From Pseudooceanicola lipolyticus (GTDB taxonomy: Bacteria; Pseudomonadota; Alphaproteobacteria; Rhodobacterales; Rhodobacteraceae): DNA of 64,000 bases. The DNA lies in the NCBI RefSeq assembly GCF_002786325.1, contig NZ_PGTB01000002.1:159178-223177 (forward strand), in the 5' to 3' direction. Below, piece after piece: positions 9,633-62,330 of the stretch (positions are counted from its first letter, which is position 1; each line of letters begins with the position of its first letter). Both the position numbers and the translations under genes were made by a program. The notes under the pieces are model-generated. The model worked only from the letters and a program-made list of their open reading frames with translations, did not search any database and was not told the origin of the DNA.

Positions 9633-10436
9633 TCAGGCGGTCAGGGACTGTTGACCCATCTTCTTCAGATTTCGAACGATTTCTTCGTGCATGATCCCTA
9701 CGATCTCTTTTTCGGATCTCAAGATAACATCAGTTGGAGCGCCAACCCCGACAGCGAAAAGCCGCGAGTTCAGATGGTTAGGAAACGGCATGGAAATCAA
9801 GCCGCTCCCTTGAACCACCTGATCGGTTGAGAGGTAATAGCCCTTGGCACGGGTTTCTGCCAACGAGGCCACGAAAGCTTTCACATCCACTGCCGGTTTG
9901 TCGGGCGCGCGATAGGCGTTGATCCTGCGGAACAGACTGCGCACTTCGTCGTCACTGAAACGACTCATCAGAACGCGCCCGACACCTGAGTTACCCAGCG
10001 GACGACGTGTCCCGAGCGATATGTGGTGGATCGGCGAATCTTTCGGGCGGACAACTTGCACGTACTCGGCTTCGTCCCCATTCTTGGTTGCCAGAACCAC
10101 CACATGCCGTGTGCGTTCCGAAATTGCCTTGAGCAGCCGGTGGATGGTGCCTTCGCCGAACAGATCTGGATTCATCCACGACCCTAAAAGCGGAACGCGC
10201 TCGGTGGGAAAATAACTCTTCTTTCGGGCATCGTGGGTCAGAAATCCAAGCTTCACCAAGCTTTTGAGCAGCGCCGAGGTACTTGACTGCGGGTACCCCA
10301 GTTCCTTGGACACTTCCACGACCGAAAGCGGTCGCTGAACTTCATCGAAATACACCAAAGTCTGACAGGTGCGCGCCACCGATTTCACAATTTGATCGCC
10401 GCCTGTTCTTGCTGAAGTCTGATGCGCGGTTTCCAT
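9633..10436 (-). CDS. IclR-family transcriptional regulator
   Basis: 267 residues. N-terminal winged HTH (RPLSVVEVSKELGYPQSS, about residues 35-65) and a C-terminal effector-binding IclR domain (around TRRPLGNSGVGRVLM and KGYYLSTDQVVQGS). The start at 10436 follows GGAGGAGA; an upstream in-frame ATG (10478) has no such site. It is oriented like the CaiB-ACAD-synthetase operon that ends 145 bases upstream and sits beside the IS scar. A TGTGCA-N6-TGCACA palindrome 16 bases before its start suggests autoregulation. Confidence 0.9.
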   Translation of the reverse strand: METAHQTSARTGGDQIVKSVARTCQTLVYFDEVQRPLSVVEVSKELGYPQSSTSALLKSLVKLGFLTHDARKKSYFPTERVPLLGSWMNPDLFGEGTIHRLLKAISERTRHVVVLATKNGDEAEYVQVVRPKDSPIHHISLGTRRPLGNSGVGRVLMSRFSDDEVRSLFRRINAYRAPDKPAVDVKAFVASLAETRAKGYYLSTDQVVQGSGLISMPFPNHLNSRLFAVGVGAPTDVILRSEKEIVGIMHEEIVRNLKKMGQQSLTA

Positions 10437-10504: not shown

Positions 10505-10520
10505 TCTGTCAACTGTTAGA
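10505..10520. promoter_or_regulatory. degenerate copy of the TCTAAC..GTTAGA palindrome
   Basis: TCTGTCAACTGTTAGA matches the perfect site at 59933 in 13 of 16 positions. It lies about 70 bases upstream of the IclR start. May be chance. Confidence 0.3.
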
Positions 10521-15227: not shown

Positions 15228-15243
15228 TCGAACAACCGTTAGA
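15228..15243. promoter_or_regulatory. degenerate copy of the TCTAAC..GTTAGA palindrome
   Basis: TCGAACAACCGTTAGA, 13 of 16 positions shared with the perfect palindrome at 59933. It lies in the divergent promoter region, 44 bases before the plus-strand start at 15287. Confidence 0.4.
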
Positions 15244-31229: not shown

Positions 31230-32048
31230 CTAGTGCCGGCCGGTTTCCCCAACCTCCGAACGATAGCCGAGTGCTCGGGAGAGCTGTTCAGCGGCCGTTT
31301 TGGCAGCGGCAACATATCGCTTCTTGTTACGCTTGGCGCGCTCCAGAGGAGCACCAATCACCAATGCTCCTGCCAAGTGTCCGTCGGCGCGAAAGACCGG
31401 AACCCCGAACCCCGCTGCATCTACATGCGCGGTTCCAGCTGTACTGGAATACCCGGTTTTGCGAATCTCCGAAATTAACCCGCGCAGTTCATTTTCATCG
31501 GTGATCGAATTAGGCGTCAGCGGCTTTAATTCAGTGCGCCGAAAATAATCGTCCAGTTCCTGCTGCGTGTCAAAGGCCAGCATGACCAGCCCCGATGCCG
31601 AACAGAACAATGGCCGGTTGATCCCCTGTTGGGCGACATACCGAACGGGCTGGGGGCTTTCGATGACCGACGAATAAATGACTTTCTCGCCGTCCCGGAC
31701 AGCAAACAGGATGGTTTCACCGGTCTGGTTAACCACATCATTCATCACCCCGCGCAGGACCGATTCGAACGGGTGGTTGGTCAGAATTGACTGGGCGAAC
31801 TGAAAAATCCTCGGACCCAGAAAGTAATTGTCTTCCTCGCGCATCAGATACCCCTTCTCGGTGAGGGGCCGAAGCAGCACCAGCAAACTGCTCTTGGGGC
31901 AATCAATCGCGATGCTGAGTTCCGAAAGAGACATGTGACGTTTGCAGCGCGCCAAAAGATCGAACAACGCAAGGATACGCGTCAAGGACCGGGGCCCTTC
32001 CGATGTGCGCCCGGCGGCTTCGGCTGGGCCAGATTGCGCGGTTTTCAT
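31230..32048 (-). CDS. IclR-family transcriptional regulator
   Basis: 272 residues. Winged HTH at about residues 30-75 (HMSLSELSIAIDCPKSS) and a C-terminal ligand domain (AQQGINRPLFCSASGLVM; GYSSTAGTAHVDAAGFG). ATG 32048 lies eight bases after GGAG; an ATG two codons earlier is too close to it. Co-oriented with the MaoC-like gene 34 bases upstream. The three CACATATGTG palindromes surround this gene's neighbourhood, so it is the best candidate to bind them. Confidence 0.9.
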   Translation of the reverse strand: MKTAQSGPAEAAGRTSEGPRSLTRILALFDLLARCKRHMSLSELSIAIDCPKSSLLVLLRPLTEKGYLMREEDNYFLGPRIFQFAQSILTNHPFESVLRGVMNDVVNQTGETILFAVRDGEKVIYSSVIESPQPVRYVAQQGINRPLFCSASGLVMLAFDTQQELDDYFRRTELKPLTPNSITDENELRGLISEIRKTGYSSTAGTAHVDAAGFGVPVFRADGHLAGALVIGAPLERAKRNKKRYVAAAKTAAEQLSRALGYRSEVGETGRH

Positions 32049-50772: not shown

Positions 50773-51969
50773 TTAGCGGTCCTTTTGGTTGACGATCAGT
50801 TCTGCATTTTCGGGTAGTTCCGAAACAATGTTCACTTCGTCGACACGAATTCGTGTATGCAGTTTGAAGTTTTTGGCGGCGGCTGCTTCCGCAGCAGAAG
50901 CGTCGGCACCGTCTTCCAGCACAAGCGAGAGGCGGATCATGTCGCGATCGTTCTCGCGCGTTACCACGGCCTGCGCGGCCTTTGCGCCCGGCGTGCCGAT
51001 GACAACTTCTTCAACCACGCGCGGATAAACGAAAATCTCGCGCACTTTGACCGCTGCCCCGACCCGTCCCTGCAATGCTGAAATCCGGCTGACGGTGCCA
51101 TCCGCGTTGCTTTCCAGGGCAAAGGCGCTGTCGCCGGTGCCGAACCGGATCATCGGCCAGGTGGCATCGCGCGCGGTCACGACAACCTCGCCCGGTTCGC
51201 CATGGGCGACCTGTTCGCCGCTGACCGGATCGCAGATCTGCACCACGCGGTCGGGATGAACCAGATAGCCTTCGCCGCCATCCTCATAGGCGACAAGGCC
51301 TAGATCGGCGGTGGCATAGGCGGCCCAGGTGGACACGCCGTATTCGGCCTCGATCCGGCGGCGCTTGGCCATCCAGTCGCCCATCTCACCGCCGAGGAAG
51401 GCTGTCTTCACCTTCCATGCGTCGCGGCCATAGGTTTCGATCACCTTGTCCGCCAGCGTCAGGAAAAACGCGGTCGAGGCGCAGATCGAAGTCACGCCGG
51501 TTTCGACGATGATCTGCGCCTGAAGCTCGGTATTGCCCACGCCGCCGGGAATCACCGTGGCACCTGCGGCCTGTGCCGCTTCGTCGAACAGCAAGCCTGC
51601 GGGCACAAGATGATACATCCAGGTGTTCAGGATGATATCCCCCGGCCCCACGCCTGCCGCCTTGAAAAGCAGGTCCAGGCCATGACCTCCCTCGCCCGAA
51701 AGGGCCGGCTCGAAAATTGGGCCAGGGGACACGTAGATCCGTCCAATATCCTTCAGATCCGAGGCAAGGAATCCGCCGAAAGGCGGGTTCTCGCGCTGGA
51801 TCTTCAGAAGCTCTTCTTTTTTCATCACTGGAAGTCGCGAGAGGTCCGCCACCGATGTGACGGCTGCCGGATCGAATCCGGCAGCCGTAAATCGCGATTT
51901 CAGGCCAGGAGCTTTTTCGGCCGCAGCGGCATAGGCTTGCGCTATATCTTTGTAGATATCATCAGACAT
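50773..51969 (-). CDS. PaaK-like AMP-binding protein with non-canonical P-loop
   Basis: 398 residues from ATG 51969, seven bases after AGGAGG (ATG 51975 is too close). Overall like phenylacetate-CoA ligase, including LPVMKKEELLKIQRE, the middle GATVIPGG...TELQ block and RFGTGDSAF followed by RVGAAVKVREIFVYP. Where PaaK has SSGTTGKP, it reads YVSPGPIFEPALSG, so the phosphate-binding loop is altered. It may be a divergent ligase subfamily or a CoA-ester-binding protein. Last gene of the operon beginning with the transglutaminase-like protein. Confidence 0.75.
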   Translation of the reverse strand: MSDDIYKDIAQAYAAAAEKAPGLKSRFTAAGFDPAAVTSVADLSRLPVMKKEELLKIQRENPPFGGFLASDLKDIGRIYVSPGPIFEPALSGEGGHGLDLLFKAAGVGPGDIILNTWMYHLVPAGLLFDEAAQAAGATVIPGGVGNTELQAQIIVETGVTSICASTAFFLTLADKVIETYGRDAWKVKTAFLGGEMGDWMAKRRRIEAEYGVSTWAAYATADLGLVAYEDGGEGYLVHPDRVVQICDPVSGEQVAHGEPGEVVVTARDATWPMIRFGTGDSAFALESNADGTVSRISALQGRVGAAVKVREIFVYPRVVEEVVIGTPGAKAAQAVVTRENDRDMIRLSLVLEDGADASAAEAAAAKNFKLHTRIRVDEVNIVSELPENAELIVNQKDR

Positions 51970-51996
51970 TTCCATGCCTCCTCGTCCAATCGGGCG

Positions 51997-52806
51997 TTAA
52001 AGCGGGCAGTCCTTGCGGAAGTTTGGCGCGCGCTTCTCGCGGTGCGACAACACACCTTCCTTGACGTCCTCGCTCATAAAACCAAGCATCTCCAGCGCGG
52101 TCGACGCATCAAAGATCGGCCCGGCCTGGCGCAGCCAGTTGTTCAGCGAATACTTGGTCCAGCGGATCGCGCTTTGCGAGCCGTTGGCCAGTTCGACAGC
52201 CGTGTCCAAAGCGATCTGCTGAAGCTCGTCATCCTCGACGCACATTGACACCAGACCGATGCGCTCGGCCTCTTCGCCCGACACCGGCTTGCAGGTCATC
52301 AGATAGTATTTCGCCTTGGCCATCGAGGTCAGCAGCGGCCAGATAATCGCCGCGACATCGCCAGCGGCAACGCCCAGACGCGGATGACCATCGACAATCT
52401 TTGCCCGTTTCCCGGCGATCGAGATGTCGGCCAGGATGGCAACCACAAGGCCCGCGCCTGCCGCAGGGCCATTGATCGCGGAAATGATCGGCTTGTTGCA
52501 GTTGATGATGTTGTAGACGAGATCCTTGGCTTCTTTCCACGTCTTCATGATCTCGTGCGAGTCGCCGATCATCTTCTCAATCAGGCTGAAATCGCCGCCC
52601 GCCGAAAACGCCTTGCCCGCGCCGGTCACGATGACCGCGTTGATGTCGGGGTCGCGGTCGATGTCGATCCACATGTCCGTCATCTGGGTGTGGGTTTCGG
52701 CATCGACCGAGTTGAATGTCTCGGGCCGGTCGAACGTGATGCGCAGGACGCGATCCGCCGGGTAGTCAAATTTCAGTTTGTCGTACTTTGCGTAACGCTC
52801 CGACAT
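51997..52806 (-). CDS. crotonase-family enoyl-CoA hydratase-like protein
   Basis: 269 residues. Oxyanion-hole segments AFSAGGDFS (about 65) and GPAAGAGLVVAI. The catalytic segment reads GHPRLGVAAGDVAAIIW, without the two hydratase Glu in their usual places, so it may be a divergent hydratase, isomerase or hydrolase. ATG after GAGGAGGAAAAG. Sits between the fourth ACAD pair and the PaaK-like gene. Confidence 0.85.
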   Translation of the reverse strand: MSERYAKYDKLKFDYPADRVLRITFDRPETFNSVDAETHTQMTDMWIDIDRDPDINAVIVTGAGKAFSAGGDFSLIEKMIGDSHEIMKTWKEAKDLVYNIINCNKPIISAINGPAAGAGLVVAILADISIAGKRAKIVDGHPRLGVAAGDVAAIIWPLLTSMAKAKYYLMTCKPVSGEEAERIGLVSMCVEDDELQQIALDTAVELANGSQSAIRWTKYSLNNWLRQAGPIFDASTALEMLGFMSEDVKEGVLSHREKRAPNFRKDCPL

Positions 52807-52833
52807 AGGTCTTTTCCTCCTCAGGGTATGGGT

Positions 52834-53985
52834 TCAGCCAGGCAGTCCCAGGACGGCCTTGGACAGGATGTTTCTTTGGATTTCGTTCGATCCACCGTAG
52901 ATCGTGGTAGGTCTGGCCTTGTAGAAGCTCGACAAAACGTCGACGCTAACATTGCCAACCTGAAGCGGCCCGATGGAGCCGCCATCGGGACCGGCTGCTT
53001 CGATCATCAGCTCGGTGATGCGCTGGAAGCATTCAGTCACCCAGATCTTCAGCATGGACACATCCGCACCGAGCGTCTCGCCACGTTTGAGCTGATCTGC
53101 AAAACGGGCATAAAGCGCGGCATGATCTTCCACATCCAGTGCCGCTTGGGCAAAGCGGTCACGGAACACCGGATCGTCAAACGCGCCACGGCCACGGGCA
53201 AAGCTTTCAAGCTGTCCCAGAGCGTTCTGGGCCAGACTTGGCGAGCCGATGAAGATGCGCTCGAAGCTCAAAAGCGCCTTGGCCATCGTCCAGCCCTTGT
53301 TCAGTTCGCCGACCAGGTTTTCCCGGGGAGTGCGGGCATTGTCGAAGAACACCTCGCAAAATTCGGTCTCACCCGAAAGGGTGGTGATCGTGCGCACCTC
53401 GATCCCCGGCTGATCCATCGGAGCAAGAAGGAAACTGATGCCCTGCTGTTTCTTCGGCGCATCGGGATCGGTGCGCACCAGCATGAAGATGTGCGTGGCA
53501 TCATGCGCCATCGTCGTCCAGATCTTCTGGCCGTTAATGACGAAATCGTCGCCGTCAATTTCCGCGCGTGTGCGCAGGTTCGCCAGATCGGACCCGGCGC
53601 CGGGTTCCGAATAGCCCTGACACCAGATATCTTCGCAACTCAGGATACGCGGCAGCCAGTAATCTTTTTGTTCCTGGGTGCCGAATTTGATGATCAGCGG
53701 CCCGACCATCTGCACGCCCATGTCGCGGCCGCGATTGACGCCCCAGCGCTGCTGCTCTTCGTAAAAGATCAGCAACTTGGCGGCGTTCAGCCCCATACCG
53801 CCGAATTCAGCGGGCCAGGCTGGCGCGACCCAGCCCTTGGCGTGAAGCTTGCGGTGCCAATGTTCGATCTCGGCGAACTTCGGTCGGTGCGGCAGGTGAC
53901 GCAGCTCCTCGGGATATTCCGCCTCGAAGAACTGGCGCACTTCTTTGCGGAACTCTGCATCGGTCATAGCGTTCCAGTCGGTCAT
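52834..53985 (-). CDS. acyl-CoA dehydrogenase, catalytic-type subunit of a pair
   Basis: 383 residues from ATG 53985, which overlaps the preceding ACAD stop by 4 bases. FAD motif YSEPGAGSDLANL near 125; C-terminal TIYGGSNEIQRNI (Gly for Glu); helix G LLSFERIFIG with Glu. It resembles the FadE-type enzymes of steroid side-chain catabolism. Likely alpha2beta2 with the next upstream gene. Confidence 0.88.
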   Translation of the reverse strand: MTDWNAMTDAEFRKEVRQFFEAEYPEELRHLPHRPKFAEIEHWHRKLHAKGWVAPAWPAEFGGMGLNAAKLLIFYEEQQRWGVNRGRDMGVQMVGPLIIKFGTQEQKDYWLPRILSCEDIWCQGYSEPGAGSDLANLRTRAEIDGDDFVINGQKIWTTMAHDATHIFMLVRTDPDAPKKQQGISFLLAPMDQPGIEVRTITTLSGETEFCEVFFDNARTPRENLVGELNKGWTMAKALLSFERIFIGSPSLAQNALGQLESFARGRGAFDDPVFRDRFAQAALDVEDHAALYARFADQLKRGETLGADVSMLKIWVTECFQRITELMIEAAGPDGGSIGPLQVGNVSVDVLSSFYKARPTTIYGGSNEIQRNILSKAVLGLPG

Positions 53986-55106
53986 TGTGCTGCCCCCTCT
54001 GCTTCGCGTGCCTCGAACCATATCCGCCTGTGATAGGCATCGTCGCCCAACCAGGCCGACAGCACCAGCGCCCGGTTCAGGTAGAGCCCGATATCGAACT
54101 CATCCGTGTACCCGACGGCCCCGTGCAGCTGGATGGCGTCGCGCGTGATCTTCTTGGCGGCGGTGACCGCGCGAGCCTTGGCCCGGCTGGCAAGCCGCGC
54201 CCGGACTTTTGGATCGGTTTCGCTGTCCATCTGCGCAAGCGCCTCCCGCACTCCGGCCTGCGCGACCTCGCACATCACGTTGAGGTCGACGGCACGGTGC
54301 TGGATGACCTGGAATGATCCGATCGGCTTGTCGAACTGCTCCCGCGTCTTGATGTAGTCGAGCGTGATCTCGAAGGCGCGCTCGCTCACGCCGACAAGCT
54401 CGGCCGCGGCAAGCGCCGTTGCATCGGCGACAGCCTCGGCCAGTGCAGTGAGAACCGCACCGCTGCTGGCCAATTCCGCGGCCGGAGTTCCCGAAAACGA
54501 AAGCTCGCCCAGAGAGCTGCCATCCGCCTGCGTCCGCTTGTCGATGACAAGCCCCTGCGCGTCTGCCTCAGCCAGAACCAGAACCGGACCATCATCCTGT
54601 TCGGCCACGACAAGGAACCCGTGCGAACCGATCGCACCGACGACCCAGGCCTTGCCACCGGTCAGCTTTCCGTCCGCGTATCGGCAGGTCGCATCGGCAG
54701 GCGCCCCGTCGGGGCCGCGTTCCTGCCAGGCAACCGCCAATGAAATTTCGCCGCCGATGAGCTGTGCCATCTTCGGATGATCCGGACAAAGGCGGCGCAG
54801 AAGGCCGAGGCTCAGACCTATCGTCGACACGACCGGTTCCGGGGCAAACACACGGCCGACTTCCTCGGCGATGACACCCCCGGCGGCTAGGCCCATGCCA
54901 AGCCCGCCCTGATCTTCGGGCACCGCCACGCCGAAAACACCGGCCTCGGCCAGTTCCCGGACCATCTCCGGATCGAAACCGCCCCCGGCATCACGGAGTT
55001 GTCGGGCTCTGTCACTTCCGCCCGCCCGTTCAAACAACGTGCGCACGCTCTCGCGCAACAGGCGAAGGTCTTCTTGTTCGCTGGAAAGGAACTCAGTTTG
55101 TGTCAT
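53982..55106 (-). CDS. acyl-CoA dehydrogenase, non-catalytic-type partner subunit
   Basis: 374 residues. C-terminal half has TREQFDKPIGSFQVIQHRAVD and GAVGYTDEFDIGLYLNRAL. No EGT Glu, no helix-G Glu (LTALAEAVADATALA) and a degraded FAD loop (AWQERGPDGAPAD). Overlaps the MaoC gene by 14 bases and its partner by 4. Fits the partner subunit of a heterotetrameric ACAD. Confidence 0.83.
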   Translation of the reverse strand: MTQTEFLSSEQEDLRLLRESVRTLFERAGGSDRARQLRDAGGGFDPEMVRELAEAGVFGVAVPEDQGGLGMGLAAGGVIAEEVGRVFAPEPVVSTIGLSLGLLRRLCPDHPKMAQLIGGEISLAVAWQERGPDGAPADATCRYADGKLTGGKAWVVGAIGSHGFLVVAEQDDGPVLVLAEADAQGLVIDKRTQADGSSLGELSFSGTPAAELASSGAVLTALAEAVADATALAAAELVGVSERAFEITLDYIKTREQFDKPIGSFQVIQHRAVDLNVMCEVAQAGVREALAQMDSETDPKVRARLASRAKARAVTAAKKITRDAIQLHGAVGYTDEFDIGLYLNRALVLSAWLGDDAYHRRIWFEAREAEGAAQ

Positions 55107-55542
55107 TTTGTTTTCGCTGGATCATCACAGGGGTGTCGGTCGAAAAAACGACCTCGCCCTCGGGGTTTTTGGCGCTGAGCGTATAGTGCAAAACACCTCT
55201 GTCGGGCTTGCTTTTTGACGGCGTGACCGCGTTGACCGTCAGTTCGACATCAAGGGGTTCGTTCGGGTGCACAGGCCGCAGCCAGCGCAAATTGTCAAAG
55301 CCCATGCCGCCGATATTGGCAACATCGACCATCATCTCGGTCATGACCGGCTTGAACACCTCAAGCATGGTCTGAAAGCCCGAGGCGATCAGGCTGCCAT
55401 GTATGGCGGTTGCATAGTCTTCATCGGTGTGCAGCCGCTGCGGATCCCATTCCTTGGCAAAGGCCTTTATCGAATCCGCGCTCATCGGAGCGCTGCGAAA
55501 GCGATAGACTTGGCCCGGCGAGAAGTCTTCCAGATACCTCAA
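55093..55542 (-). CDS. MaoC-family hotdog hydratase
   Basis: 149 residues starting at TTG 55542 (after GGAGGG), overlapping the transglutaminase-like stop. The dyad is kept (FAKEWDPQRLHTDEDYA, about residues 29-43), followed by GSLIASGFQ. Probably hydrates the enoyl-CoA made by the ACAD pair directly downstream. Confidence 0.85.
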   Translation of the reverse strand: MRYLEDFSPGQVYRFRSAPMSADSIKAFAKEWDPQRLHTDEDYATAIHGSLIASGFQTMLEVFKPVMTEMMVDVANIGGMGFDNLRWLRPVHPNEPLDVELTVNAVTPSKSKPDRGVLHYTLSAKNPEGEVVFSTDTPVMIQRKQNDTN

Positions 55543-56258
55543 GAGGCACCCTCCTTTGCGAAACCGTCATCGTATCCGCTCGCATCCTTGGATATCCGGA
55601 TGCGGTTGAATTCTTCCAGCTTCGGATAGGTTTCCTTGAACGCCATCAGGAACTCACCCATCGGCGCGTCGAAATAGAGACCACGGTCGTTCACATATTC
55701 CATGTGCCGGTGATTCTGTTCGTCGAACTCATGAAAGAGCGCGTCGTGATAGCCGTCGAAGACCAGGGGTTTGACCCCGAATCTTTCACACAGTTCCATG
55801 TTGAATGCAGGTGTCACCTTGTAGGCCTCATTCCCCAACCACAGCTGAACATAGCCGTGGTAGATAAAGAGATCGGTCCCCATCAACTCCTGCAACTTGG
55901 GTGTATTCAGGTGGTTGCGCACATCCGCGAACCCCAGAGCGGCGGGGATACCCACAGCACGCAAACAAGCCGCCAGAAGAATTGCCTTGGGAACGCAAAA
56001 CGCCGCTTCCGCGCCAGCGATACGGCTGGCACGGTAAGAGTCCTCATCCAGCGCAAAACAATAGGGATCATAGCGAATATCGTCGCGCACCGCTTCGAAC
56101 AGGCGGATCGCCTTGTCTCGATTGGTTGCGTCCACAGGAAGATCACGCAAAGCCGATGTCACGAAACCCTGCACTTCCACGCTATCGCTTTCCACAAAGC
56201 GCGATGGCATGACATAACGCTCAGCTTCAGTCGGCAGGTCATCGTCAGACTTGTCCAT
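55539..56258 (-). CDS. transglutaminase-like (papain-fold) domain protein
   Basis: 239 residues from ATG 56258 (after AAGGGGGG). Catalytic-type Cys in AAFCVPKAILLAACLRA (about residue 88) and His in YHGYVQLW (about 134); the third position reads KVTPAFN, without the usual Asp. No signal peptide, so cytoplasmic. Such domains act as proteases, peptide N-glycanases or amide hydrolases; in a CoA operon it could cleave an amide or thioester bond of the substrate. First gene of the operon, 13 bases after a palindromic operator. Function not known. Confidence 0.75.
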   Translation of the reverse strand: MDKSDDDLPTEAERYVMPSRFVESDSVEVQGFVTSALRDLPVDATNRDKAIRLFEAVRDDIRYDPYCFALDEDSYRASRIAGAEAAFCVPKAILLAACLRAVGIPAALGFADVRNHLNTPKLQELMGTDLFIYHGYVQLWLGNEAYKVTPAFNMELCERFGVKPLVFDGYHDALFHEFDEQNHRHMEYVNDRGLYFDAPMGEFLMAFKETYPKLEEFNRIRISKDASGYDDGFAKEGAS

Positions 56259-56271
56259 TGGCCCCCCTTTT

Positions 56272-56287
56272 TCTAACAAATGTTAGA
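56272..56287. promoter_or_regulatory. TCTAACAAATGTTAGA palindrome, candidate repressor operator
   Basis: 16 bases, one mismatch from perfect symmetry, 13 bases upstream of the ATG of the transglutaminase-like gene. Near-identical to the site at 59933. Length and symmetry suit a TetR-family repressor; none is encoded in the window. Confidence 0.65.
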
Positions 56288-56319
56288 TTACCGATTCAAA
56301 TCCTGCCCGTCAACGGGAT

Positions 56320-57456
56320 TTACTCTGTTTTCGGTTGGTCCACGCCATAACGCGGATTGTCTTCGCCCAGAGTGGCTGCAACTCCGACCGAATTTCCGGA
56401 AGAACGGAACTCCGGGGCAATTGGCAGCGGCAAAGCGGGCGCGTCCCGGCCGGAGATTTTTACGGTCCGCCCGAACACGTCACGCGCTTTGAAATGCGGG
56501 TCACGCGCCGCCTCGGCGGGCGTCTTCACGACCGAACAGCAGCAATCTGCCGCAGCCAGCAAAGGCTCCCAATGGGTCGAGGGGTGTTCCCTCAGACGAC
56601 GTGCAACCTCTGCGGCACAGGCATTTGGATCGGACCAGTCATCGCGAAGGGCCACAGGCAAACCAATGACATCGCAGAACGACTGCCAGAACTTTTCTTC
56701 CAACGCGCCGACGGCGATCTGACGCCCGTCCGCAGCCGTATAAAGCCGATACCGGGCCAGGCCACCCGTCAGACGGCTGCCACCGCTTTCGATGTTCTGC
56801 CCGGCAATCACACCTTCGGCATGGGCCCAATAGGCAAAGGCGAACGCCCCCTCGGCCATTGCGATATCCAGATGCGTCCCCTGCCCGCTTGCCTGCCGCG
56901 CAATCAGGGCCAGCAGGATATTCATCACCGCAGGATAGGTTCCGCCTCCGATATCGGCGACCAGCCCGAACGGGGCTGTTGGCTGGTCATCCGGTCCGCG
57001 ACTGAGCGACAGGATACCCGCATCACCGACGTAGTTGAGATCGTGGCCGGCGGCGCTGGCCTTTGGTCCGGTCTGGCCATAGCCGGTGATCGAACAATAG
57101 ATGAGACCGGGATTGATCTTTCGCACCGCTTCATAACCAAGCCCCAGCCGGTCCATCACGCCGGGACGAAACTGCTCTACCAGAACATCGGCCTTCTCGA
57201 TCAAGGGGCGCAGACGTTCCACTGCGCCCCTTGACTTGAGGTCGATGGCCACCGATCGCTTGCCGTGGTTCAACACAGCAAATCCGATGCTCTCTCCGTC
57301 GATCTTTGGCTCCGTGTGGCGCGCGTCCTCGCCGGCTCCGGGCCGTTCGAACTTGATCACTTCGGCGCCAGCCTCGGACAGCATGAGCGTCGCCATCGGA
57401 CCGGGAAGAAGTGTGCTGAAATCCAGCACCAGGATATCCTTGAGCGGTTGAGCCAT
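56320..57456 (-). CDS. CaiB/BaiF family, alpha-methylacyl-CoA racemase-like
   Basis: 378 residues from ATG 57456 (eight bases after GAGG); a TTG six codons earlier is in frame. The racemase His motif AGHDLNYVGDAG (about 125) and the Asp motif LVADIGGGTY (about 155) match alpha-methylacyl-CoA racemase better than the formyl-CoA transferases. It would interconvert (2R)- and (2S)-methylacyl-CoA so ACADs can use both. Overlap with the upstream hydratase is absent (10-base gap). Supports a branched-chain substrate. Confidence 0.8.
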   Translation of the reverse strand: MAQPLKDILVLDFSTLLPGPMATLMLSEAGAEVIKFERPGAGEDARHTEPKIDGESIGFAVLNHGKRSVAIDLKSRGAVERLRPLIEKADVLVEQFRPGVMDRLGLGYEAVRKINPGLIYCSITGYGQTGPKASAAGHDLNYVGDAGILSLSRGPDDQPTAPFGLVADIGGGTYPAVMNILLALIARQASGQGTHLDIAMAEGAFAFAYWAHAEGVIAGQNIESGGSRLTGGLARYRLYTAADGRQIAVGALEEKFWQSFCDVIGLPVALRDDWSDPNACAAEVARRLREHPSTHWEPLLAAADCCCSVVKTPAEAARDPHFKARDVFGRTVKISGRDAPALPLPIAPEFRSSGNSVGVAATLGEDNPRYGVDQPKTE

Positions 57457-57466
57457 CTTCACTGCC

Positions 57467-58324
57467 TCAGGCAAAGCGCGCCGCGCCGTTGTTCAGAACA
57501 ACCACGTCGCGTGCAGGAATAGACGCTCGAAACCGGGCCTCGCCGTCCTCTTCCCAGATTTCGAACCGCACGGTTTCGCCGGGATAGACCGGAGCCGAGA
57601 ACCGAACATCCAGACCGACAAGCCGGGCAGAATCATAGTCCAGCAACGTCTTGAGAATCGCCCGGGCGGCCAGACCATAGGTCGCCAAACCGTGCAGGAT
57701 CGGGCGGTCGAACCCGACCGACCGCGCGACATCGGGGTCGGCATGCAGCGGGTTCATGTCGCCGCTGAGCCGGTAGATCAGCGCCTGGCGCGGAAGCGTC
57801 TCGATATCACATATGTGATCGGGCACCCGGTCCGGCAGCACCGCCGGCGTCGGGCCGGGCCTGTTCTCGCCGCCGAATCCGCCGTCGCCCCGGGCGAAGG
57901 CCGACATCGCGACGCGTGCCAGCTTGTCGCCGCTGTCCGCGTCGATGATCTCGCGGCTTTGATAGATCACAGCGCCCTTGCCCTCGCCCTTGTCCGAGAT
58001 GAAGTCGATCTGGCTGCGGCCGACAATCCGGCCATGTGTCGGCAGCGGCTTGTAGATGTCGAGCCACTGTTCGCCGTGCAGCACTTTTTGCCAGTTTACG
58101 CCGGTCTTGGGATCGCGCAGCCAGAAGCCGGGATACCCCAAAATGACCGCCATCGAGGGAACCGCCTTCAGACCGTCCTCATAGACAAAGGCCAGTTCTT
58201 TCTTGTCTGTCGGATCTTCGCCGAACCCCAGCCCGAGTGCGTAAAGGATGGTATCCCGCTCGGTCAGAGTCTGCTTGATCTCTTCGAAATCCCAATTCGA
58301 AAGTGCTTCGAAATCCAGTGGCAT
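57467..58324 (-). CDS. double-hotdog MaoC hydratase (hydratase-2 type)
   Basis: 285 residues. N-terminal degenerate hotdog (to about 150) and C-terminal catalytic hotdog with the full hydratase-2 motif YRLSGDMNPLHADPDVA followed by ILHGLATYG (residues about 185-215). It resembles the hydratase part of peroxisomal multifunctional enzyme 2, producing (3R)-hydroxyacyl-CoA. ATG after AAGGGAGGAAAG. In an operon with DUF35, thiolase-like and racemase-like genes. Confidence 0.88.
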   Translation of the reverse strand: MPLDFEALSNWDFEEIKQTLTERDTILYALGLGFGEDPTDKKELAFVYEDGLKAVPSMAVILGYPGFWLRDPKTGVNWQKVLHGEQWLDIYKPLPTHGRIVGRSQIDFISDKGEGKGAVIYQSREIIDADSGDKLARVAMSAFARGDGGFGGENRPGPTPAVLPDRVPDHICDIETLPRQALIYRLSGDMNPLHADPDVARSVGFDRPILHGLATYGLAARAILKTLLDYDSARLVGLDVRFSAPVYPGETVRFEIWEEDGEARFRASIPARDVVVLNNGAARFA

Positions 58325-58347
58325 GATCTTTCCTCCCTTAGTTGCCG

Positions 58348-59499
58348 TCAGAGCGTGTTTTGCGATCCAAGTATGGCCGTGACCTGACTGGACAGCACAC
58401 CGCCGTTGCCATGCGCCAGCGCCAGATCAATATCCTTCAACTGAATGCCCGGCGCGTCGCCACGGATCTGACGAGCAGCCTCGATCACTGTGAAGATACC
58501 GTACATCCCGGGGTGCACACAGGACAGGCCTCCGCCATTCGTGTTCACCGGCAAGGCCCCGCCAGGCGCGATGCGCCCGCCCTGGACAAAGGCCCCGCCA
58601 TCGCCCTTGGCGCAGAACCCCAGATCTTCAAGAAACAGGATGGTATTGATGGTGAAGGCATCATAAAGCTCGACCGCCTGGATGTCCGCAGGGGTCACGC
58701 CGGCCGCCGCAAAAGCGCGCGCGCCCGAGTCGCGGGCTGCGGTCACGGTGAAATCCTTCATCTGCGAAATCTGCCGGTGCGAGCTTGCCGCAGCACTGCC
58801 CAGCACATAGACAGGCGCCTTCGGGAAATCCCGGGCGCGGTCCGCGCGGACCATTACGATCGCGCCGCCGCCGTCGGTGACAAGACAACAGTCGCGCACG
58901 GTCAATGGATCGCCCACCATGCGCGCACCCAACACGTCCTCGCGGGTCAGCGGGCCGCGCTCGAACGCTTCGGGGTTGTGCTGCGCCCAGGCCCGCGCAG
59001 CAACGGCCACGTCGGCCAGCTGTTCGCGGGTGGTGCCATATTCATGCATGTGCCGCGCCGCCGCCATCGCATAGGCCGAGATCGGATAGCGCGGATTATA
59101 CGGCGCCTCGTAGGCCGGCGGACGTGAAGCGGTCACGAGTCTGCCCGACGCGGTGCGCTGGTTGGAGCCATAAACAATCAGCGCGACATCACACAGACCG
59201 GCGTCCAGCGCCATGGTCGCGGACGTCAGGTAGTTTACGAAAGACGAACCGCCCGACATCGTGCCATCAATGAAACGGGGCTGGATGCCCAGATACTCCG
59301 CCGCCATAAGCGCCGGCATGCTGTCTTCCATCATGGTGCAAAACAGCCCGTCGACGTCGGACAGGTTCAGCCCGGCATCGCCAAGCGCCGCAAGCGCGGA
59401 TTGCGCCATGACATCATAGGCCGTCAGGCCATGGGCTTCTCCGAAACCGGCATGACCGGTTCCCACGATGGCGGATTTTCCCCGAAGTTCAGTGGTCAT
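58348..59499 (-). CDS. thiolase-superfamily protein lacking the nucleophilic Cys (SCP-x/Ltp2-like)
   Basis: 383 residues. Nucleophile site TMSGGSSF (no Cys); His in NGGGLSCVHPGMYG; Tyr in ELYDAFTI; NGGVLSSQ at the CxG position. Strongly similar to 40118-41263. Three bases after the DUF35 gene, with AGGGAT before the ATG. Third such pair in the window. Confidence 0.85.
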   Translation of the reverse strand: MTTELRGKSAIVGTGHAGFGEAHGLTAYDVMAQSALAALGDAGLNLSDVDGLFCTMMEDSMPALMAAEYLGIQPRFIDGTMSGGSSFVNYLTSATMALDAGLCDVALIVYGSNQRTASGRLVTASRPPAYEAPYNPRYPISAYAMAAARHMHEYGTTREQLADVAVAARAWAQHNPEAFERGPLTREDVLGARMVGDPLTVRDCCLVTDGGGAIVMVRADRARDFPKAPVYVLGSAAASSHRQISQMKDFTVTAARDSGARAFAAAGVTPADIQAVELYDAFTINTILFLEDLGFCAKGDGGAFVQGGRIAPGGALPVNTNGGGLSCVHPGMYGIFTVIEAARQIRGDAPGIQLKDIDLALAHGNGGVLSSQVTAILGSQNTL

Positions 59500-59502
59500 G
59501 GC

Positions 59503-59880
59503 CTATCCCTCCGACGGTTTGAAAAGCACGGCCGGAACACCCTCAGCCTCGCCCACGAATGCGGTTACAGGCATGTCGATGACGACCTCACCTGGGGCAA
59601 TGCCCTCGACCCGGCTCATCATCCGGACACCCTCGTCCAGCTCGACGACGCATACGTTGTAATCGCCGCCCCGTTCGGGCTTTCGGCGCACAACTGTTGT
59701 GGTGTGGACCCGTCCCTTGCCGCTAGCCTTCTTCCAAGAAATCGCGCTGCCATGACAATGGGGACACAGGACTCTCGGGAAAAAGTGATATGCCCCGCAG
59801 TCATCGCACTTGGGCAGCAGGATCTCTCCCTCTGCCAGCGCGCGTTGGAAAAACTGGTCTGGTCGTTTGGCGTCCTGCAC
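59503..59880 (-). CDS. DUF35 OB-fold / zinc-ribbon protein
   Basis: 125 residues starting at GTG 59880, seven bases after AAGGAG. Zinc ribbon CDDCGAYHFFPRVLCPHC (about residues 25-42), then OB-fold with RRKPERGGDYNV. First gene of the minus operon DUF35-thiolase-hydratase-racemase; shares the 104-base divergent promoter region with the CaiB gene at 59985. Confidence 0.87.
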   Translation of the reverse strand: MQDAKRPDQFFQRALAEGEILLPKCDDCGAYHFFPRVLCPHCHGSAISWKKASGKGRVHTTTVVRRKPERGGDYNVCVVELDEGVRMMSRVEGIAPGEVVIDMPVTAFVGEAEGVPAVLFKPSEG

Positions 59881-59932
59881 CGGCGTTCTCCTTCAAGCGA
59901 TCCAGTCTTTGTCTAATCGTATTGATTATGTT

Positions 59933-59948
59933 TCTAACAATTGTTAGA
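59933..59948. promoter_or_regulatory. TCTAACAATTGTTAGA perfect palindrome, candidate operator
   Basis: Perfect 16-base palindrome between the divergent DUF35 operon (start 59880) and CaiB operon (start 59985), so it could control both. Same motif, one base different, at 56272. Confidence 0.7.
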
Positions 59949-59984: not shown

Positions 59985-61130
59985 ATGTCAGGTTCAGACT
60001 TAGCCCCCCTTTCCGGCAAACTCGTCGTTGCGTTGGAACAGGCAGTCGCCGCGCCTTTTTGCTCCTCGCGGCTGGCCGATGCCGGCGCGCGTGTGATTAA
60101 GATCGAACGCAAGGGAGCCGGCGATTTCGCCCGCGCCTACGATACCGCCGCCAACGGCGAAAGCGCCTATTTCACATGGTTGAACCGGGGAAAGGAATCG
60201 GTGGCGCTGGACATTAAAGCCGACGAAGACCGTGAAATCCTGCTCAGGATGCTGGAAAACGCGGATGTGTTTATTCAGAACCTGCTGCCGGGCGCGCTGG
60301 CCAAGCTCGGGCTCGATTCCGCAAGTCTGCGAGAGAGGTTCCCGCGTCTCGTGACCTGCGACATCACCGGATATGGCGAAGACGGCCCGATGCGCAACGC
60401 CAAGGCCTATGACCTTCTGGTGCAATGCGAGAGCGGTCTGGCATCAGTGACCGGCACTGCGGACGGACCGGGACGGGTTGGAGTGTCGGTCTGCGATATC
60501 GCAACCGGTATGACAGCCCATGCCGGAATCTGCGAAGCACTGGTCGGGCGAGATAGCACCGGCAAGGGCAGCGGCGTTTCCGTGGCAATGTTTGATGTGA
60601 TGGCCGACTGGATGTCGGTTCCGCTGCTATATCACGATTACCTTGGCAAGCCGACACCCCGTGTCGGACTGAACCACACGGTCATCTGCCCGTACGGGGC
60701 CTATGAATGCAAGGACGGTCAGCTTGTCGTCATTACCGTGCAGCACAGCGGCGAATGGCAAAGGTTCTGTGAACACATACTGGGCGACGCGGCTCTGGCA
60801 ACCGACCCCCGTTTTCACGACAACACATCGCGCATCAACAACAAACCCGCGCTCGAAGTGCTCATCAAGGCCGTGTTCGCCTCGCATGACCGCGCCGAGA
60901 TGCTGAAGCGGCTTGACGCTGCGGGCATTGCCTCGGGCGCGGTGAACGACGTGGCGACCCTGTCCGGTCACCCCCAGCTTGACCGATCCGTGATAGGCAC
61001 ACCCTCGGGCGAGATCAACGTCCCGACACCCCCGATCCGGCGCAGCGTCGGCGAAACGACACTGCGCCCCTGCCCGGCCTTCGATGCGCAAGGTAAAGCC
61101 ATTCGCGCCGAATTCGGACCCCGTTCATGA
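59985..61130 (+). CDS. CaiB/BaiF family (class III) CoA-transferase
   Basis: 381 residues. LVVALEQAVAAPFCSSRLADAG at the N-terminus, RVIKIERKGAGDFAR, and catalytic Asp in SVCDIATGMTAH (about 170). The C-terminal half (LNHTVICPYGAYECKDG) resembles transferases for branched dicarboxylic acids such as mesaconyl/itaconyl-type; that is a loose resemblance. Followed 33 bases later by another CaiB gene. Confidence 0.88.
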   Translation: MSGSDLAPLSGKLVVALEQAVAAPFCSSRLADAGARVIKIERKGAGDFARAYDTAANGESAYFTWLNRGKESVALDIKADEDREILLRMLENADVFIQNLLPGALAKLGLDSASLRERFPRLVTCDITGYGEDGPMRNAKAYDLLVQCESGLASVTGTADGPGRVGVSVCDIATGMTAHAGICEALVGRDSTGKGSGVSVAMFDVMADWMSVPLLYHDYLGKPTPRVGLNHTVICPYGAYECKDGQLVVITVQHSGEWQRFCEHILGDAALATDPRFHDNTSRINNKPALEVLIKAVFASHDRAEMLKRLDAAGIASGAVNDVATLSGHPQLDRSVIGTPSGEINVPTPPIRRSVGETTLRPCPAFDAQGKAIRAEFGPRS

Positions 61131-61163: not shown

Positions 61164-62330
61164 ATGACCGCTGAGAACAAACCGGCGATCCTTCAAGGCG
61201 TGAAGATCGTCGATCTGACTTCTGTGGTTTTCGGACCTTTGGCGACGCAGATGCTGGGCGATCTGGGGGCCGATGTGATCAAGGTGGAAGGCCCCGAGGG
61301 CGATCTTCTTCGCCAGGTCCAGCCATCGCGCAACAAGCTGATGGGGGCCGCTTTTCTGGGGACCAACCGTAACAAGCGCAGTGTCGTACTCGACCTCAAA
61401 ACACAAACTGGTCGCGATCAGTTGCGCAAACTGCTCATCGATGCCGATGTGATGATTTCGAGCATCCGGCCTGCGGCGCTGGCCAGATTGTCTTTGGATC
61501 CCGAAACTCTACGCCAGGAAAACCCGAACCTGATCACGGTATCCGCCACCGGTTTCGGGCAGGACGGGCCCTATGCCGCCAAGCCTGCATTCGACGATTC
61601 CGTCCAGTCGGTGTCGGGATTGGCCAGCCTGGCGACCCTTCGCGACCCCGAGGCACCGCCCGCCTATGCCCCGACAATTCTCGCCGACAAGCTTGGCGGG
61701 GTCACCGCTGCCTATGCCGTGATGGGTGCCCTATTCCACCGCGAGCGTACGGGAGAGGCTCAGCATGTTGAGGTTCCGATGTTTGAGACGCTCGCCGCCT
61801 TCCTGTTGGCCGAACATATGGATGGTGCCACCTTTGAAGAGCTTCCGCAGGATTTCGGCTATGCCCGCATGCTGGTTCCGCACCGGCGTCCAGTTCAGAC
61901 CGCTGATGGCTACATCACAATTCTGCCTTACACCAACGTACAATGGGCGCGATTCTTCAAGACGGTTGGGCGCAATGACATGATCGACCATGTCTGGGTC
62001 ACGGACATGGACGCCCGTAGCCGCAACATCGGCGCAGTATACGATATGGTGGCGCACATTGCGCTGACCCGGACCACAGATGAGTGGCTTGACCTCATGG
62101 AGCAGGCCGACATACCCGCCATGCCAGTGCGCAACCTTTCAGATTTGCCGAACGATCCCCATCTTGCCGCAACCGGGTTCTTTCAACGGATTGATCACCC
62201 GACCGAAGGTGCGATCTGGACGACACGCCCGCCGGTTCGCTTTTCGGCGACCCCTTCGCGACATGATCATCGCCCGGCCCCGCGACTTGGGGAACACAGC
62301 GACGAAATTCTGGGGCCGGGCAGGGAATAG
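61164..62330 (+). CDS. CaiB/BaiF family (class III) CoA-transferase
   Basis: 388 residues from ATG 61164 (after AAGGGTGG); GTG 61152 is an alternative. KIVDLTSVVFGPLATQ, DVIKVEGPEGDLLR, and catalytic Asp in TILADKLGGVTAAY (about 175). Tandem with 59985 but clearly different in sequence, so the two may act on different acids or form a hetero-oligomer. Converges with the truncated ACAD, 21 bases away. Confidence 0.88.
   Translation: MTAENKPAILQGVKIVDLTSVVFGPLATQMLGDLGADVIKVEGPEGDLLRQVQPSRNKLMGAAFLGTNRNKRSVVLDLKTQTGRDQLRKLLIDADVMISSIRPAALARLSLDPETLRQENPNLITVSATGFGQDGPYAAKPAFDDSVQSVSGLASLATLRDPEAPPAYAPTILADKLGGVTAAYAVMGALFHRERTGEAQHVEVPMFETLAAFLLAEHMDGATFEELPQDFGYARMLVPHRRPVQTADGYITILPYTNVQWARFFKTVGRNDMIDHVWVTDMDARSRNIGAVYDMVAHIALTRTTDEWLDLMEQADIPAMPVRNLSDLPNDPHLAATGFFQRIDHPTEGAIWTTRPPVRFSATPSRHDHRPAPRLGEHSDEILGPGRE

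Follow-up and report, generated by a model that had tools for sequence, protein, structure and literature searches.

The 64,000-nucleotide stretch of Pseudooceanicola lipolyticus DNA analyzed here (the window) is the end of a 223,177-bp contig, C219 (C219:159178-223177), in a draft genome of 5.23 Mb. It carries several sets of genes for acyl-CoA metabolism, and two of their promoter regions share a 16-base palindrome, TCTAACANNTGTTAGA (consensus WWTCTAACANNTGTTAGAWW), with the half-sites CTAAC...GTTAG. A perfect copy, candidate operator B, was observed between the divergent genes 59503-59880(-) and 59985-61130(+). The other copy, candidate operator A, has a single mismatch at a central base; it is located 13 bases upstream of the start of a transglutaminase-like gene (ATG at 56258, minus strand), within a run of ten co-directional genes. 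A sequence-only reading of the window had named these genes, judged the two palindromes too similar to be chance and proposed one TetR-type regulator for at least three transcription units. The gene names match Pfam and the annotation of related plasmids. At up to three mismatches, four copies were found in the window compared with 0.04 in the shuffled window, so the two near-identical palindromes are real and beyond chance. The other two copies, at 10505 and 15228, both have three mismatches, with the centre included. Here we describe this palindrome and its candidate regulator, P0001.

The whole genome was scanned at up to three mismatches. All nine places found fall within the 93-219 kb part of C219, and the reversed control pattern gave two places in the same genome. 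Many unrelated intergenic copies, which had been named beforehand as evidence against a shared regulator, were not seen, all nine copies being on one plasmid contig. Eight of the nine places are intergenic according to a simple gene caller. The remaining one (100574) overlaps no more than a prematurely called start codon, and a further ATG follows the site. A scan with the core CTAAC-N4-GTTAG at up to one mismatch added sites near C219:91126 and 93456, lost the weak site at C219:169682 (window 10505) and gave one match outside the catabolic region, at C219:4950. The contig also carries conjugation genes, encoding a VirD2-type relaxase, a coupling protein and relatives of VirB4 and VirB6.

The sequence-only reading was correct that the window contains no TetR gene. 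A TetR_N profile search of the genome gave 33 matches, of which the three on C219 (90896, 106097 and 106754) are all outside the window. Two of these three fall within one open reading frame on the minus strand (C219:105596-106960), 52 kb outside the window. Its product, P0001, has 454 amino acids when read from the ATG at 106960, a start codon chosen among several candidates. PF00440 (TetR_N) matched P0001 twice over the cut-off and TetR_C_24 matched it twice, giving two complete TetR units. One of the palindromes, at C219:107006, lies between the P0001 gene and a divergent SDR gene. The gene of this likely regulator has the palindrome in its own promoter. Computationally, the proposal of one TetR-type regulator for several transcription units holds up; beyond what had been foreseen, the candidate is a fused double TetR encoded 52 kb away, with about nine putative operators and possibly a second TetR.

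The two halves of P0001 are 43% identical (88 of 206 residues). When the N- and C-halves of 11 alphaproteobacterial proteins were compared, they formed two clades (100/96 and 100/99) and jointly one clade (100/99). Since the N and C halves are sister groups, P0001 arose by internal duplication. The recognition helices, AGSIYYHF/AGSVYYHF, are nearly invariant across 37 aligned proteins. P0001 scored 157.9 bits over the whole protein, in two matched stretches, against the ScbR family (NF041196, cut-off 150), while a single-domain TetR of the same contig, P0002, scored 70.2; the NCBIfam KstR score of P0001 was 51.1, below the cut-off of 280. A second double-TetR type (about 55% identity), followed downstream by a single TetR of a different branch, was also observed (L148, L150 and L178).

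Relatives were collected in a one-genome-per-species scan, and the best 80 of 172 loci (52-99% identity) were analyzed. They occur in many Roseobacter-group genera, Paracoccus, Hoeflea, Bradyrhizobium, Acidocella and others. The core palindrome at up to three mismatches gave 197 matches in these 80 loci vs 27 for the reversed control. We then considered the regulator's own promoter, taken as 150 bp upstream to 60 bp into the match, at up to two core mismatches. The palindrome was present in 78 of the 79 loci with upstream sequence (the 80th has none), with 45 exact cores, 27 with one and 6 with two mismatches, and in 54 of those loci it is at -61. Control windows of the same loci reached that level in 23 of 1454 cases, some of which may be real operators. 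Many loci are near copies of each other: taking the best promoter 16-mer from each of the 79 gives 24 distinct sequences, including one that is not a site (L146).

Both window sites are kept in relatives. In 15 of 15 sequences (our own, seven plasmids and seven genomes, whose flanks are as little as 73% identical), sites A and B show no change at any of the 14 outer positions, and only the two central ones vary. Thirteen of these sequences are distinct for site A and twelve for site B; around the sites, identity exceeds 90% in nine of the 14 relatives, and five have clearly diverged. Loss of the palindrome in close relatives that retain the operons, the other observation named in advance as contrary evidence, was not found in the relatives examined, and a Frigidibacter plasmid keeps both sites too. 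The spacing of the pair is 3661 bp in the window, 3660-3661 bp in six of seven other carriers and 3663 bp in genome G044. The half-sites are equally conserved, with 14 and 13 mismatches of 168 each; an asymmetry matching the asymmetric protein was looked for in these counts and none was seen. The weaker copy at 10505 is letter-identical in five of six plasmids listed (W02-W06) and in G044, and it was not found in the sixth, W01.

The exact palindrome also accompanies the double TetR. Among 295 genomes of the family, nine carry the double TetR (E<=1e-80), and eight of these nine have four to five exact copies of TCTAACANNTGTTAGA each (33 in total), whereas five of the 286 others have one each (Fisher p 9e-12). 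The cluster was found on eight annotated plasmids, of which all but one are typed as conjugative (seven). Because of this location and the 97-99% identity between genera, we propose horizontal transfer. In genome G244 the cluster (C10, about 2498045-2621973) lies on a 3.1-Mb contig that is probably chromosomal, so this often plasmid-borne regulon can be integrated.

The position of the sites was compared with promoter elements. Among 154 distinct sites (up to one core mismatch), 51 have at least five of six bases of TTGACA and, 16-18 bases further on, a -10-like hexamer made from the palindrome end (TAGA plus two bases). Shuffled flanks gave 4.9 on average and 13 at most; the 154 sites share ancestry, and the count of -35 elements is a description and not a probability.

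Taken together, we consider it probable (roughly 0.7) that the palindrome is the operator of a plasmid regulon for the breakdown of acyclic methyl-branched acyl compounds, with P0001 as its most likely repressor. We computed the motif and its conservation, the restriction to the plasmid contig, the copy in the regulator's promoter, the co-occurrence and the duplication; from these we infer that P0001 binds the palindrome and represses, that its halves pair within the chain, and that a ligand is involved. P0001 seems to act on a symmetric site much as a TetR dimer does, but as a single chain: the DNA-binding unit in each half would recognize one of the two identical arms, CTAAC...GTTAG. At least a third of the known sites overlap the stretch from -35 to -10 of sigma-70-like promoters. 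A repressor bound there would keep RNA polymerase off the catabolic operons and off the gene of the repressor itself, steric repression being the natural reading of where the sites lie in the predicted promoters. An acyl-CoA of the pathway would then release the repressor.

Several observations weigh against this assignment. The promoter at L146 (Acidocella) lacks the palindrome, and an exact core copy is 2.5 kb off. G101, whose double TetR has 54% identity, has no exact copy and only one-mismatch copies, one of which is in front of its double TetR. The five singletons in non-carriers equal the number of single hits of the reversed control (5 of 295). About two thirds of the 154 sites have no clear -35 element at the expected place. 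The remaining contrary observations concern P0002, a single TetR of 209 amino acids (C219:90470-91099) that belongs to the same subfamily as P0001 and is related to both of its halves. A CTAAC-N4-GTTAG site at C219:91126 lies about 27 bases upstream of the P0002 start. P0002 orthologues (at least 75%) are present in the same eight genomes, and thus the co-occurrence does not separate P0001 from P0002. In addition, the Frigidibacter plasmid pcai42C has both window sites and P0002 (82%) and no double TetR on the plasmid, its chromosome not having been searched.

P0002 could accordingly be the main reader of the palindrome or share it with P0001, in which case the double TetR would be a co-regulator or read part of the sites. 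The recognition helix of P0002 is almost identical to that of P0001, and its gene is downstream of a gene pair headed by operator 93374. However, among 60 of 67 records listed, 22 plasmids (H142-H163) have the double TetR without a P0002 gene apart from it at E<=1e-15 (chromosomes not searched); the best P0002 match in these plasmids lies inside the double TetR gene, and the two of them that were examined for operators both keep the two window sites. Moreover, the sites in the promoters of P0002 and its orthologues have other outer bases (ACTAACGCCTGTTAGG, CCTAACAAGTGTTAGT and CCTAACAGGTGTTAGT) than the T...A of the window sites. We therefore regard P0002 as an unlikely main reader, while shared control by P0001 and P0002 is possible. 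The site ACTAACGCCTGTTAGG itself is conserved at C219:91126 and at orthologous plasmid positions. Among seven single-TetR loci (L171-L175, L178 and L179), CTAAC-N4-GTTAG is by the start in L171, L173 and L174 (P0002 orthologue), L175 has a three-mismatch copy, and no such core was found close by in the other three. Since three of the seven have the core by the start, part of the subfamily may have inherited the CTAAC half-site from a common ancestor.

The exact singletons outside the carriers read TCTAACATATGTTAGA, and four of the five are beside a gene that, by eye and with no family search, encodes a different type of TetR (YHHGDLR). Hence the palindrome alone does not identify its reader. 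At L166-L169, TCTAACATATGTTAGA was observed near such an other-type TetR-like gene, which in three of the four loci is divergent from a possible efflux component gene (by eye); this is possibly a convergent use of the same palindrome.

A perfect inverted repeat that is confined to plasmid-type contigs in several carriers could also be a transcript feature or a plasmid recombination or replication site instead of a protein operator. This is very improbable, since the sites are intergenic and frequently have a -35-like element in register, both arms are fixed while the two central bases vary freely, and the palindrome accompanies the regulator gene on the 3.1-Mb contig of G244 too. A chance similarity of two AT-rich intergenic stretches, in favour of which no point was found, is practically dismissed and was rejected, because four copies stand against 0.04 expected, all copies are on a single contig and they are kept in relatives.

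If P0001 is the repressor, its fusion would bar mixed dimers with its paralogue P0002. On this basis we offer a tentative and rather doubtful evolutionary scenario, in which internal duplication produced a covalently closed TetR dimer while the paralogous single TetR, which shares the CTAAC half-site, was kept on the same plasmid. Without mixed dimers, the fusion would be a private, self-contained repressor, mobile with its regulon between genera, and a separate fusion in Rhodococcus, beside a similar set of genes, would mean that interference between paralogues has been solved this way more than once. Rhodococcus oxybenzonivorans plasmid pRB98 (L180) encodes a double TetR of about 30% identity near genes for HMG-CoA lyase, acyl-CoA dehydrogenase and CaiB. 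Its halves group together, apart from the alphaproteobacterial ones (97/99, with long branches that call for caution), and its fusion is seemingly a separate duplication. The sole CTAAC-N4-GTTAG copy upstream of it has two mismatches and lies at a distance of about 280 bp, and a one-mismatch copy is found beyond the 3' end of the gene; the whole record has four copies at up to one mismatch vs 18 for the reversed control.

KstR and KstR2 are TetR repressors of lipid-degradation genes (the mycobacterial steroid regulators), and, in line with the sequence-only reading, their operator motifs have other arms or spacing than this palindrome. KstR2 and Mce3R (PDB 9b7y) were among the matches to the double TetR in a sequence search of solved structures. 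According to PMC11667970, Mce3R of Mycobacterium tuberculosis is a double TetR recognizing a non-palindromic operator as an M1-M2 unit, its halves come from distinct TetR subgroups, and 204 double TetRs are predicted in actinomycetes, as cited there; PMC4482099 likewise describes the Mce3R motif as not a classical palindrome. Like P0001, Mce3R has two TetR units per chain, and it regulates lipid catabolism. In contrast to Mce3R as portrayed there, the conserved site of the P0001 clade is a symmetric palindrome with equally conserved and complementary arms, and the N and C halves of P0001-type proteins are sister groups (100/99).

AtuR, which is known to govern acyclic terpene utilization in Pseudomonas, is a single-domain protein, compared with the double chain of P0001. 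In PMC9973270, AtuR and RdmA are TetR repressors of the Pseudomonas atu/dmg clusters, and the AtuR site is given as AGCAAGCGCTTGG / CCAAGCGCTTGCT. The likeness is a TetR repressor beside AtuA-type acyclic terpene genes with inverted repeats near -10. The sites differ, TCTAACANNTGTTAGA being conserved here and AGCAAGCGCTTGG given there for AtuR (the AtuR site was not searched on the contig). Among the literature matches listed (open-licence papers), we found no proteobacterial double TetR, no paper joining acyclic terpene, Roseobacter and plasmid, nothing relevant for TCTAACA with TetR, no paper on the pathway for pMaD1/Marinovum, and no description of this regulator, operator or regulon. Double TetRs are known from Mce3R, and what would be new is the symmetric site and the origin by internal duplication, both judged from sequence comparison. 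If correct, the proposal adds a symmetric DNA-binding type of double TetR outside actinobacteria, and it shows fusion by internal duplication. For a pathway that is scattered on conjugative plasmids through the Roseobacter group and other alphaproteobacteria, and whose annotation so far consists mostly of generic beta-oxidation names, it also names a candidate regulator, operator and regulon; the operator could serve as a tag for finding further pathway genes.

Table 1. Palindromic sites and the genes around them. Positions are those of the window unless C219 is given.
Feature	Position	Strand	Context or basis
Candidate operator B, TCTAACAATTGTTAGA	59933..59948		between divergent operons
Candidate operator A, TCTAACAAATGTTAGA	56272..56287		ahead of transglutaminase-like gene
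Weaker conserved copy, TCTGTCAACTGTTAGA	10505..10520		between IclR gene (Pfam) and acyl-CoA synthetase-like gene (by eye)
Weaker copy, TCGAACAACCGTTAGA	15228..15243		between divergent genes
DUF35-type OB-fold/zinc-ribbon protein, first gene of left operon	59503..59880	-	Pfam PF01796, PF12172
Thiolase	58348..59499	-	PF22691
MaoC/hydratase-2 type hydratase	57467..58324	-	PF01575, PF22622
CoA-transferase family III (CaiB / methylacyl-CoA racemase type)	56320..57456	-	PF02515
Transglutaminase-like protein, first gene behind operator A	55539..56258	-	PF01841
MaoC dehydratase	55093..55542	-	PF01575
Two acyl-CoA dehydrogenases, enoyl-CoA hydratase, PaaK-like CoA ligase	50773..55106	-	annotation of orthologous plasmid genes
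CaiB-type CoA-transferase, right operon	59985..61130	+	PF02515
CaiB-type CoA-transferase, right operon	61164..62330	+	PF02515
DUF35-thiolase-hydratase-CaiB operon; transglutaminase-MaoC-dehydrogenase-crotonase-ligase genes; two CaiB genes	window sites
Lipid-transfer thiolase and SDR	C219:93374 site
Operon with AtuA, biotin carboxylase and carboxyl transferase; divergent acyl-CoA dehydrogenases	C219:100574 site		AtuA: PF07287, E 9.8e-145
Double TetR, divergent from SDR and AMP-ligase	C219:107006 site
Dienoyl-CoA reductase, divergent from eleven-gene operon with carboxylase subunits, HMG-CoA lyase and citryl-CoA lyase	C219:120010 site
Operon beginning with ABC-transporter ATPase gene	C219:132980 site		by eye

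The genes of the putative regulon were named by Pfam, by orthologous plasmid annotation or by eye, and the operons were delimited by spacing. The genes facing the sites suggest the catabolism of acyclic methyl-branched (terpenoid-like) acyl-CoAs to HMG-CoA, a substrate predicted from gene content. The AtuA operon leads away from the site at C219:100574 and would be controlled from it; a third carboxylase operon is behind the P0002-type site at C219:91126. NCBIfam names for the carboxylases were all below the cut-offs, so they do not settle the substrate specificity.

The sites at C219:93374 and 93456 are 82 bp apart in one promoter region. The same pair was found in five plasmids listed (W01, W02, W03, W05 and W06), and it is a possible double operator. 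On plasmid CP010856 a further site, TCTAACGNNTGTTAGA, was observed at 233640, ahead of an SDR-ABC transporter gene set, with similar sites on other plasmids; this region was not seen on C219, which ends before it. Two IclR-type regulator genes are present in the window, at 9633-10436 (Pfam) and 31230-32048 (orthologous annotation), and are possibly local regulators of other operons.

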